Source: Roseateles saccharophilus (GTDB lineage: Bacteria; Pseudomonadota; Gammaproteobacteria; Burkholderiales; Burkholderiaceae_C). Taken from it: a stretch of 64,000 bases of DNA. The notes beneath the pieces were generated by a model, which was not told the DNA's origin, searched no databases, and saw only the letters and a list, made by a program, of their open reading frames with translations. This document shows, in pieces, positions 59,765 through 63,820 of the stretch; position 1 is the stretch's first letter; each line of letters starts with the position of its first letter. The stretch covers positions 62,001 through 126,000 of the forward strand of contig NZ_SMBU01000005.1 in assembly GCF_004342485.1 (NCBI RefSeq). Reading direction: 5' to 3'. The translations under genes were made by a program, and so were the position numbers.

Positions 59765-60067
59765 TTATCCGTCATTCCGCCGCGCGCGCCAGTAGCCGGG
59801 CTTTCGGCTGTCGGGCGCAAGCGCAAGCACATGGATCTCGTCCTCCCGCTCCACGTACACGACGGAGAAGGGAAACTTCCTGGGGAAGCAACGCCGCGTT
59901 CCGTGCCTGTAGGGCGAACCCATGGCGGGGAACTCTGCTGCAAGTTGGACGGCCTGCTCGACCGCGGCCATGAAGCGCTCGCCAAGTGCTGCGCTGATGC
60001 TCTTGTAGTACAGAACCTCGTGGATCAGTTCGTCCCGAGCGGCCTCGTGAAAGCGGACGCGCTTCAC
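59765..60067 (-). CDS. RelE/ParE-family toxin
   Basis: 100-residue toxin of a type II system: 'RVRFHEAARDELIHEVLYYKSISAALGERFMAAVEQ' is the ParE/RelE start, then 'RKFPFSVVYVEREDEIHVLALAPDSRKPGYW' with the C-terminal beta sheet and His/Arg residues. RelE members cleave mRNA on the ribosome, ParE members poison gyrase; which applies cannot be told. Its ATG overlaps the antitoxin stop by 4 bp. Confidence 0.92.
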   Translation of the reverse strand: MKRVRFHEAARDELIHEVLYYKSISAALGERFMAAVEQAVQLAAEFPAMGSPYRHGTRRCFPRKFPFSVVYVEREDEIHVLALAPDSRKPGYWRARRNDG

Positions 60068-60291
60068 TTGAGGATGCGGCGAACCTCTGCGAAGACTTCT
60101 TCTGCCGGAATCAGCTTGGCGGTCCCGTCATTGATCTCCGCGAGGCGGCGCTCAATCTCTTGATCCCAAGCTGCCTCGACCCCTGCATCAATTTCATGAA
60201 CGGTCGCGAGCAATTGCTCGGCCAGGCGTACGCGCTCTTCGGGGGGCAGTTCCAGAGCCTTCTGGGAGAGTTCGTCGACAAGGGTAGTCAT
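60064..60291 (-). CDS. Antitoxin (addiction module component family)
   Basis: 75-residue helical protein of the 'putative addiction module component' family: 'LSQKALELPPEERVRLAEQLLATV' then a C-terminal 'EEVFAEVRRILK' that wraps the toxin. Ribosome site AGGAG is 7 bases before the ATG. It precedes and overlaps the toxin gene, as required so that antitoxin is made first. Autorepression is usual in such systems but no operator was identified. Confidence 0.9.
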   Translation of the reverse strand: MTTLVDELSQKALELPPEERVRLAEQLLATVHEIDAGVEAAWDQEIERRLAEINDGTAKLIPAEEVFAEVRRILK

Positions 60292-60898: not shown

Positions 60899-62296
60899 CT
60901 ACAGCCTCCGGTGCGCGAGCAACAAGCCTGCCCAGGTTAGCAATCCATTCAGCACCAGCAACTCCAATCCGATCTGATACCCACCCCAAGGCTGCCCCAG
61001 GTCCAGCACCGCGCACAGCAAGGGCGCTGCAATGCACACGCCCAGCAAGACCCGCCCCGACACCACCCTCGGCGTGAACAGCGCAAACGCGAACAGCCCG
61101 AGCAGCGGCCCGTAGGTATAGCCGGCCAGCTTCAGGATCAGGTAGATCATGCTGGCGCTGGCTAGCGCCTTGAAGCCCAGCACCATCGCGAGGAAGAGCG
61201 CCGCGAAGGCGAGGTGGACGCGGCGCCGCGTGCGCACGTCCTCGCGCGGGATGCGCAGCAGGTCCAGGCAGGTGCTGGCCGTCAGCGCGGTGAGTGCACC
61301 GTCGGCGCTGGGCAGCAGGGCCGAGACCAGGGCCAGCACGAACACCGCCTGCACCCAGGCCGGCAGATGCTGCATGACGACGGTCGGGAAGAGCGCGTCG
61401 CCGCGGGCCGCGATGCCGTGCTCGCGGGCATAGAGCGTCAGCAGGCCGCCGAGCAGCAGGAAGGCGCCGATGACGACGACCAGCAGGCCGGCCAGCAACA
61501 ACAGGTTCTTCTGCGCGTCGCGCAGCTTCGCGACGGACAGGCTCTTCTGCATCATTTCCTGGTCCAGGCCGGTCATCGCGATGGCGATGAAGGCGCCGGC
61601 CAGCAGGGCCTTGGCGGAGAAGTCGCGGCTAAGCGGGTCGCTCACCCAGACGCGCGTGAGGCCTGCGGCGTCGAGCTGCGCGAAGGCGTCGGGCCGCCAC
61701 AGCAGCGCGGTGCAGACGACGAGGCCGGTCAGCATGCCGGCGGTCTGCAGCGTGTCGGTCCACACCAGGGCCTTCACGCCGCCCTCGACCGTGTAGAGCA
61801 GGATCATCGCCAGCACGACGGCCGCGCCCAGCGCGAAGGGCAGGCCCAGCGGGCCGAGGATGAGGGTGTGCAGCACCTGCACGACAAGGTAGAGCCGCGC
61901 CGTGGCGCCCACGGTGCGCGACAGCACGAAATAGGCCGAACCCAGGCGCCGCGCCGCCGGCCCAAGGCGCTCGCCCAGCAGCTCGTAGATGGAGGCCAGG
62001 CCGAGGCGGTGGTAGTGCGGCAGCAGAACGAAGGCGATGACGACATAGCCGACCACATAGCCCAGCGTGACCTGCAGATAGCCGAAGCCGCCGGCCGCGA
62101 CGGCGCCCGGCACGCTGATGAAGGTGACGCCGGAAAGCGAGGTTCCGATCATGCCGAAGGCGACGACCGGCCAGGGACTTTGCCTGCCGCCGACATAGAA
62201 GCCTTCGGTGCCTGCGCGCCGTGACGCACGATGTGCGACCGCAAGGAGGATCAGGAAGTAGGCAAGGACGCCGGACAGCAGCAGGACGGGCGACAT
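60899..62296 (-). CDS. Sodium/solute symporter (SSS family)
   Basis: 465-residue inner-membrane protein with about 13 hydrophobic helices. Family signatures: 'GFYVGGRQSPWPVVAFGMIGTSLSGVTFISVPG' at residues 32-64 (SSS N-terminal block), 'EGGVKALVWTDTLQ' and 'GLDQEMMQKSLS'. Substrate (sugar, amino acid, pantothenate, etc.) cannot be inferred. Slightly short at the C-terminus relative to typical 500-residue members but complete-looking. Confidence 0.92.
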   Translation of the reverse strand: MSPVLLLSGVLAYFLILLAVAHRASRRAGTEGFYVGGRQSPWPVVAFGMIGTSLSGVTFISVPGAVAAGGFGYLQVTLGYVVGYVVIAFVLLPHYHRLGLASIYELLGERLGPAARRLGSAYFVLSRTVGATARLYLVVQVLHTLILGPLGLPFALGAAVVLAMILLYTVEGGVKALVWTDTLQTAGMLTGLVVCTALLWRPDAFAQLDAAGLTRVWVSDPLSRDFSAKALLAGAFIAIAMTGLDQEMMQKSLSVAKLRDAQKNLLLLAGLLVVVIGAFLLLGGLLTLYAREHGIAARGDALFPTVVMQHLPAWVQAVFVLALVSALLPSADGALTALTASTCLDLLRIPREDVRTRRRVHLAFAALFLAMVLGFKALASASMIYLILKLAGYTYGPLLGLFAFALFTPRVVSGRVLLGVCIAAPLLCAVLDLGQPWGGYQIGLELLVLNGLLTWAGLLLAHRRL

Positions 62297-62300
62297 GGGC

Positions 62301-62359
62301 CGCGATGATGCCCGAGTCCGGCCGGGCCCCGCCCGCCCCGGCAGGCACGAATCATCGCG
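62301..62359. repeat. Inverted repeat upstream of the symporter
   Basis: CGCGATGAT (62301-62309) and ATCATCGCG (62351-62359), 41 bp apart, very GC-rich between. It lies just before the symporter start (62296) and may be an operator pair or a remnant. Confidence 0.4.
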
Positions 62360-62381
62360 GAGGAAGTCGCCAGGGTTATGG

Positions 62382-62538
62382 GCTCAGTAGGTCCGCCCGC
62401 CCTCGAACTGGGCTTGCTGGCGGCTGATGGCCTCGAAGGTGCGATGCGCACGCCTGATGACCAGGCCCAGCGCGGCCGACGATGGTCTTCTTCATCTGCG
62501 CGGCCGTGTACTCGCTGACGGCCAGATCCGTGGACACC
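62382..62538 (-). pseudogene. Degenerate duplicate of the ruvC 3' end
   Basis: This stretch aligns base by base with the intact ruvC 3' part (63270-63539) on the same strand. It keeps the last ten codons almost unchanged (ending 'QFEGGRTY' versus 'QFKGGRTY' and the stop) but has lost about 22 bp after the first block and about 86 bp in the middle. The remaining parts cover 'GLAIM..AH' and the 'SEYTA' region. No start or full frame, so non-functional. It sits 54 bp from the coiled-coil gene that separates it from ruvC. Confidence 0.85.
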
Positions 62539-62551
62539 CGCTGGATGTGGC

Positions 62552-62576
62552 AGCGGCCCGCAACAGGCGGGCCGCT
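62552..62576. terminator. Hairpin after the coiled-coil gene
   Basis: AGCGGCCCGC / GCGGGCCGCT, perfect 10-bp stem with a 5-base loop, 16 bp beyond the stop of the minus-strand coiled-coil gene. No T-run follows, so its role as a terminator is uncertain. Confidence 0.5.
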
Positions 62577-62591
62577 CCGGGGTGCGCCCTG

Positions 62592-63098
62592 TCAGTTCAC
62601 CTTGCCGGCATCGGCATTGCGCTTGTGGACGTCATGCGCCTTCTTGGCCTTGGCTTCGCCGAGTTCCTTGCCCTCCTGGTGGCGGTCGGCGCGGGTGGCG
62701 GCCAGGTCGGACTTGGCATGGGCCTCGTTGCGCTTGAGACCGCCGATGTCGCGGTTCTCCTGCTCACGCGCCTTCTCGTCGCGCTGGGCGGCGGCCATGT
62801 CGCCACGCTTGATGGCCGCGTCTTCGGCACGCTGATCGGCGTTGCGCTCGCTGCGCTCCGCGGCCAGCCTGCGATCGTCGCGGGCCACGCGGGCCTTGTC
62901 AGCGCCGACGCGGGCGTTGTCCTGCGCGATCTCCTTGCGCTGGTACTGGATGTTGCGGTTGTCCTTGTGGATCTGTGCGTTGTCCTGCTTGACCTGGGCC
63001 ACCGGATCGGGGGCCGAGGCCGGAGCAGTCTGGGCCGACGCCGCGCCACCGAGGGCGAGAGCGATCGTGGCAAGCGCGAAGGAAACGGTGGTCTTCAT
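62592..63098 (-). CDS. Secreted charged coiled-coil protein, unknown
   Basis: 168-residue exported protein: signal peptide 'VSFALATIALALGGAASAQ', then an almost continuous, highly charged helix with repeated Asp/Asn-Arg-Lys pattern ('KDNRNIQYQRKEIAQDNARV', 'ADKARVARDDRRLAAERSER'), likely a coiled coil in the periplasm. Ribosome site GGAG lies 7 bases before the ATG. It is flanked by ruvC (intact) and a broken ruvC end, so it appears to be an inserted gene. I do not recognise a family with function. Confidence 0.78.
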   Translation of the reverse strand: MKTTVSFALATIALALGGAASAQTAPASAPDPVAQVKQDNAQIHKDNRNIQYQRKEIAQDNARVGADKARVARDDRRLAAERSERNADQRAEDAAIKRGDMAAAQRDEKAREQENRDIGGLKRNEAHAKSDLAATRADRHQEGKELGEAKAKKAHDVHKRNADAGKVN

Positions 63099-63200
63099 GA
63101 GATGGCTCCGGGAATGAACGGTGGAGGAAGTGTTTTTTGGAAACTCGGCGGGCCCGTGCGATGAACAACGCGCACCCCCCTGTGCCGTTGACCCGAGACG

Positions 63201-63219
63201 GCTTGCAGACAGCTTGCAG
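63201..63219. promoter_or_regulatory. Direct repeat in the coiled-coil gene promoter
   Basis: GCTTGCAG occurs twice with 11-bp spacing (63201-63208 and 63212-63219), about 100 bases before the coiled-coil gene. Spacing of one helical turn suits tandem response-regulator binding; no regulator is identified. Confidence 0.35.
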
Positions 63220-63271
63220 GCTGGCCGCACCGGTGCGAGTCGAGTCAAGGGGAAACACCGGGAGGACGCGC

Positions 63272-63820
63272 TCAGTAGGTCCGCCCGCCCTTGAACTGGG
63301 CGTGCTGGCGGCGAGAGAGCGTCGTGCTGCGGCTCATGGCCTCGAAGCTGACGCGCGCATGCGCATGCATGATGGCCAGGCCCAGCGCGTCCGCCGCGTC
63401 CTTCCCCGGCACGCCGGGCAGGTTCAGCAGGCGCTGCACCATGGCCTGGATCTGTTCCTTCTTCGCGTGGCCATGGCCGACGATGGCCTTCTTCATCTGC
63501 AGGGCCGTGTACTCGCTGACGGCCAGGTCCGCGGACACCAGCGCCGTCAGCGCGGCGCCGCGCGCCTGGCCCAGCAGCAGCGTGGACTGCGGGTTCACGT
63601 TGACGAAGACGATCTCCACCGCCGCGCATTGCGGCTGGTAGCGCGCCGTGACCTCGCGGATGCCGTCGAACAGGATCTTCAGCCGCGCCGGCAGGTCGCC
63701 GGTGGCGACGCTGCTGGTCTTGATGGTGCCGCTGGCGACATAGGCGAGGCGCGGGCCGTCGGCGTCGATGACGCCAAAACCGGTCGTCTGCAAGCCGGGA
63801 TCAATGCCGAGAATTCTCAT
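63272..63820 (-). CDS. ruvC: Holliday junction resolvase RuvC
   Basis: 182-residue endonuclease that cuts Holliday junctions during recombinational repair with RuvAB. Catalytic acids are visible: Asp7 in 'ILGIDPG', Glu69 in 'AAVEIVFV', and the two Asp in '[16 protein letters not shown]'. Start at 63820 because the ATG overlaps the stop of the upstream gene (ATGA) and gives the family's 'MRILGIDPG'. Length is normal. ruvA and ruvB are not next to it in this window. Confidence 0.96.

Follow-up and report, generated by a model that had tools for sequence, protein, structure and literature searches.

A frame-broken copy of the ruvC 3′ end in Roseateles saccharophilus that looks like a relic of recombination at ruvC

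Why does the end of ruvC stand twice, in the same orientation, on the two sides of one small gene in Roseateles saccharophilus? The window analysed here, a stretch of 64,000 nucleotides (assembly GCF_004342485.1, contig NZ_SMBU01000005.1, positions 62,001 to 126,000; all coordinates below are those of the window), holds on the minus strand of contig C5, in this order, a complete ruvC of 182 aa (63272..63820; Pfam RuvC, E 4.8e-47; TIGR00228, E 4.9e-48), a gene for a 168-aa protein (62592..63098), a 5′-truncated, frame-broken copy of the ruvC 3′ end (62382..62541), i.e., the fragment, and a symporter-like gene (60899..62296). An earlier note, made from these letters alone, had read the arrangement as the footprint of a duplication or of a gene insertion by duplicative recombination at ruvC. 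This reading is partly supported by the present analysis, in that the anatomy fits and both halves of the alternative are possible. The fragment looks like a non-functional relic of ruvC, produced by recombination at the 3′ end of the gene.

The fragment matches ruvC nt 279-551, a stretch that ends 2 bases past the stop codon, and the former stop codon now lies at 62384-62386. In a minus-strand alignment with the window ruvC (63272-63820), 145 of the 160 aligned bases are identical, which leaves 15 substitutions, and the fragment has three deletions of 86, 6 and 21 bp relative to the intact gene. The local alignment score is 106, and none of 500 dinucleotide-shuffled versions of the fragment scored above 33, which excludes a chance similarity; the presence of two copies of the ruvC end in one orientation, as first noticed, was thereby borne out. 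Since the ungapped blocks (68 bp at 91%, 38 bp at 87%, 34 bp at 79% and 43 bp at 95%) extend well beyond the last ten codons, the match is not one of chance identity outside those codons, which the earlier note had named as a possible outcome. That note had put the deletions at roughly 22 and 86 bp; the longer one was right and the shorter one measures 21 bp, while the 6-bp deletion had been missed. An assembly error was excluded by reasoning, as 15 substitutions and three deletions part the two copies inside a 220-kb contig. When the surroundings of the copies were aligned, no continuing match above shuffles was found on either side of the fragment. An inverted 21-nt pair near the symporter start (62289-62309 and 62351-62371, 81%) was considered as a trace of template switching and given no weight, because other pairs of similar strength are present.

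The fragment is a dead copy, in which both the reading frame and coding constraint are lost. The frame of ruvC is shifted by the 86-bp deletion, in agreement with the earlier description of an outer copy without a reading frame, and a mechanically called 53-aa ORF that starts from GTG (62376-62537) crosses the fragment with only its first ~21 residues in the ruvC frame. The 15 differences from the window ruvC are spread over codon positions 1/2/3 as 5/7/3, whereas the 36 differences between the working ruvC genes of the window and of its nearest relative, G005, are spread as 7/0/29 (Fisher p 8e-5). Of the 15 substituted sites, 11 have the window's base in 15 or more of the 17 remaining ruvC genes, G005 not being counted. 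The fragment is oriented like its neighbour genes and so is possibly transcribed, which would allow for a working element, e.g., a decoy or regulator derived from the end of the ruvC transcript. Such a role is extremely improbable for a sequence which is seen in one of 19 genomes of the genus, which has lost 113 of the 273 bp of the copied stretch to deletions, and whose substitutions ignore codon position and mostly strike conserved bases. The fragment thus resembles the pseudogene fragments that arise by partial duplication in bacteria, i.e., a truncated, frame-broken and unconstrained copy beside an intact gene, from which it shows no notable difference; the window copy ends at the stop codon of the gene. 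Among the papers listed on gene remnants, titles and abstract openings yielded nothing about remnants of ruvC.

The gene between the copies (P0001) encodes a small, charged protein, read from the sequence as secreted and coiled-coil-like. It runs from an ATG at 63098 to a stop at 62592, with a GGAG ribosome site (63106-63109) 7 nt upstream, and its signal-peptide-like start and its coiled coil were both judged by eye; the earlier note had likewise described a secreted, charged coiled-coil gene with its own ribosome site. No Pfam or NCBIfam family was found above noise for the protein. Homologues with 76-92% identity are present in four of the 19 other genomes of the genus, and only in G005 does the homologue adjoin ruvC. 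The spacer between ruvC and this gene (63099..63271, minus strand) contains, in its half on the side of the coiled-coil gene, an 11-bp direct repeat, GCAAGCTGTCT GCAAGCCGTCT (63196-63217), with CTGTC/CCGTC halves, a pattern which we take to be that of OmpR/PhoB-type regulators, together with a CGCACGGGCCCGCCG block (63146-63160). The homologues of G005, G018 and G019, of which the last two are unlinked to ruvC, share both the repeat and the block in their upstream regions; in G003 the two are not clear. Judging from these common upstream parts, the 168-aa gene seems to carry its own promoter region along. With homologues in four genomes, the upstream region kept and a place beside ruvC only in G005, it is an independent gene, placed behind ruvC before the split of the window genome (G000) from G005 or by transfer around that split. 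The synonymous distance dS between G000 and G005 is 0.27 for the coiled-coil gene, compared with 0.25 for ruvC and 0.16-0.19 for the last four fifths of three genes upstream of ruvC, and offers no indication that the gene was recently acquired from G005. The two ruvC copies do bracket the gene by position, as the earlier note put it, but nothing was seen that would indicate a mobile cassette and its ends. Just after the gene, a G+C-rich hairpin with a 10-bp stem and without a T run was found by reading and folding (62552..62576, minus strand); the 71-nt stretch that contains it has a folding z of only −1.65, and 13 of 200 shuffles fold as well.

For the distribution of the fragment, we examined 20 genomes of the genus, one per species and with the window's own genome included, of which 19 have ruvC in the stretch read; G013 was left out of these tallies as its stretch has no full ruvC, and the ruvC of G010 starts at a contig edge. 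The fragment is present only in the window's genome (1/19). In the comparison that the earlier note had proposed, made here between different species, the 17 other genomes without a coiled-coil gene beside ruvC all lack the fragment too, but G005 (putatively Pelomonas aquatica), which is closest among the compared genomes for most neighbouring genes, has ruvC followed by the coiled-coil gene and has neither the fragment nor the symporter. The fragment is thus not a fixed companion of the coiled-coil gene. The symporter gave no match at E 1e-60 anywhere in the G005 genome, and G005 may therefore have had the fragment and lost it together with its symporter.

The stretch past ruvC is a variable, unstable interval whose content differs between species and which holds other scraps. 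With a crude gene caller and names given by eye (L044-L062), ruvC is followed in 10 of the 19 genomes by a PEP-CTERM-like gene and a large nuclease-like gene on the other strand (with a further gene in some), in two by another gene pair, in two (G000 and G005) by the 168-aa gene, in one (G014) by an SMR-like gene without the nuclease-like pair, and in two (G018 and G019) directly by the symporter; what follows ruvC in G010 and G017 was not assigned to a category. The instability is indicated by this differing cargo, by the absence of the symporter from G005 and by a 48-bp scrap in G014, where a match to the symporter start region lies behind ruvC (L056) with no symporter after it. Of the 19 genomes, 13 have the symporter-like gene, which was named from the first reading of the sequence, in the stretch behind ruvC. 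The spacer between fragment and symporter (62297..62381, minus strand) resembles the symporter upstream region of relatives in its last ~25 bp, and no relative was found for the rest of it. On the far side of the symporter, between it and an ABC transporter, two small overlapping minus-strand genes (59765-60291) resemble by eye a toxin of the RelE/ParE type and its antitoxin.

One possible origin of the fragment is a site-specific integration into the 3′ end of ruvC, by which the gene end would have been restored and the displaced end left at the far side of an element that was later lost save for the coiled-coil gene. The element e14 and phage 21 integrate in icd of Escherichia coli, giving a complete gene, then cargo, then the displaced 3′ end of the gene, and the window has the same anatomy, with the displaced end in the same direction. 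The window differs in that it has no integrase, no element and a cargo of one gene: no integrase gene lies in the 0.7-kb interval, in which the 168-aa gene is, by our reading, the only credible gene between the copies. The other cargoes behind ruvC, i.e., the nuclease-like pair (10/19) and the other pair (2/19), also come without a convincing far-side ruvC end. When the window ruvC was used to search as much as 6 kb past the gene (4.0-4.6 kb for G016, G019 and G010), 14 of the 18 other genomes gave no match at E ≤ 1e-3, and G005, G003, G009 and G014 gave only scattered matches of 42-52 bp at 69-76%; with the fragment as the query, G007 gave one 52-bp match (69%, E 2.4e-4), which lies inside a gene and is absent with the window-ruvC query. 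Furthermore, the end of the window ruvC is not foreign relative to that of G005 (8 differences in 160). A site-specific integration is thus disfavoured, and we regard it as very unlikely.

A local duplication in the lineage of the window deserves more credit, and we consider it a possible history, although one with less than an even chance. It would consist either of a tandem copy that began at ruvC nt 279 and took in the coiled-coil gene with its hairpin, after which the second coiled-coil gene was deleted, or of a single copied block of ruvC. A tandem copy would make exactly the observed junction between hairpin and ruvC nt 279, and the occurrence of ruvC and the coiled-coil gene without the fragment in G005 agrees with a duplication confined to the window's lineage. 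The fragment has the window's base at seven of the eight aligned sites at which the ruvC genes of the window and G005 differ, the eighth being private, and this sharing of sites favours a later local duplication. Trees likewise place the fragment beside the window ruvC, with zero length on the window-ruvC branch; support for this grouping is 84 for the fragment's 160 columns (91/93 in a second analysis) and 100 for the whole alignment (99/95 in a second analysis with the partial row of G010 left out). However, the alternative placement is not rejected by p-AU. A constraint that unites the ruvC genes of the window and G005 and keeps the fragment outside costs 3.26 log units for the fragment columns (p-AU 0.28) and 8.59 for the whole alignment (p-AU 0.079), and a single clade of window, G005 and fragment is 4.70 worse for the whole alignment (p-AU 0.21); the whole-alignment test is confounded because the 5′ end of the window ruvC is mosaic. 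Polarised against outgroups from which G010 and G017 were dropped, the 36 differences between the two ruvC genes comprise 10 derived in the window, 4 derived in G005, 21 ambiguous and 1 other, and were not used for dating because most sites are ambiguous. A local duplication also needs a second deletion that happens to begin 2 bases past the ruvC stop codon, and nothing of the spacer that parts ruvC from the coiled-coil gene can be recognised after the fragment (score 29.0, shuffle mean 29.8).

We lean towards another history, ahead of local duplication and with a probability of roughly 0.5, in which the fragment represents the native ruvC end, which kept its place beside the symporter while a segment with another ruvC end and the coiled-coil gene entered by recombination. 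In G018 and G019, where ruvC directly precedes the symporter, the ruvC end occupies the place of the window's fragment, and so the native ruvC end of that gene order sits where the fragment sits. The two copies cease to match 2 bases past the stop codon, which would fit copies with different downstream neighbours, while a random duplication would end there by chance only; this stop at the stop codon favours a displaced native end over a local duplication. As for the direction, mechanism and order of events, we infer that the incoming segment would have been a ruvC end plus the coiled-coil gene, the resident ruvC end staying next to the symporter. One side of the exchange would have run through ruvC homology, and the other would have been a non-homologous join within codon 93 of the resident ruvC. 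The stretch before the junction of hairpin and ruvC nt 279 has no similarity to ruvC upstream of nt 279 (score 28.0, shuffle mean 30.6). The exchange may have taken place in the lineage of the window genome or shortly before its split from G005. The branch of the fragment (0.094 raw, 0.14-0.15 by likelihood) is about half the dS between window and G005 (a half of ~0.08-0.13), so that the event and that split may be of similar age. Against a displaced native end stand the coiled-coil gene of G005, at the same place without the fragment, so that an event before the split would require a loss of the fragment in G005, and the putatively ancestral order of ruvC directly followed by the symporter, which occurs in only two of the 19 genomes.

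Homology-facilitated illegitimate recombination (e.g., PMC3240628) would yield this anatomy in one step, with one end formed by homology (here ruvC) and the other without. In Touzain et al. 2010 (PMC2884548), small variable segments are attributed to illegitimate recombination. Those segments are, like the interval in the window, short variable stretches without a tie to known mobile elements, but they were compared within species (three species), whereas the window's interval was compared between different species. The fragment is a gene remnant such as illegitimate recombination at gene borders (PMC2884548, PMC3240628) would be expected to leave. It is a by-product under either leading history, be it a displaced native end or a local duplicate.

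The other end of ruvC bears on how often the gene is exchanged. The first 61 nt of the window ruvC (63760-63820) have 4 differences to G011, 5 to G002 and 10 to G005, so the start of the gene, closer in sequence to G011 and G002 than to the nearest relative, is a possible recombination mosaic. In G008 (L046) and G012 (L050), the ruvC start is repeated as a stub of 51 or 45 bp directly behind the upstream gene, separated by a spacer of ~100 bp from the complete ruvC, a mirror image of the window's 3′ fragment. The stubs of the two genomes are alike, and so are the spacers (88% over 73 bp); elsewhere in the 20 genomes the spacer has two weak matches only. Between the upstream gene and ruvC of G018 (L057) lies an insert of ~160 bp that resembles by eye a small palindromic mobile repeat; its inverted arms, CCACAGAGGCACAGAGACACAGAG and a near complement, are imperfect. 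A second ruvC in G004 (L068, G004:C16; 73%), on a separate contig in the order yebC-ruvC-ruvA by eye, was set aside as probable contamination (the assembly is rated 4% contaminated).

As one more gene relic, the fragment is of low general interest and has little significance alone, and it is a scrap of a kind that gene finders may leave unlabelled. It can serve to flag a rearrangement at a gene border where the species of the genus differ in content. The stubs in G008 and G012, together with the mosaic start of the window ruvC, suggest that ruvC and its borders often recombine in these bacteria. A wider, rather doubtful reading is that ruvC in Roseateles-like bacteria would be a recurrent recombination border, at which cargo is swapped behind the 3′ end, the 5′ end is exchanged and scraps are left (of the 3′ end in the window, of the 5′ end in G008 and G012), and at which the conserved gene ends would serve as landing homology for small cargo.
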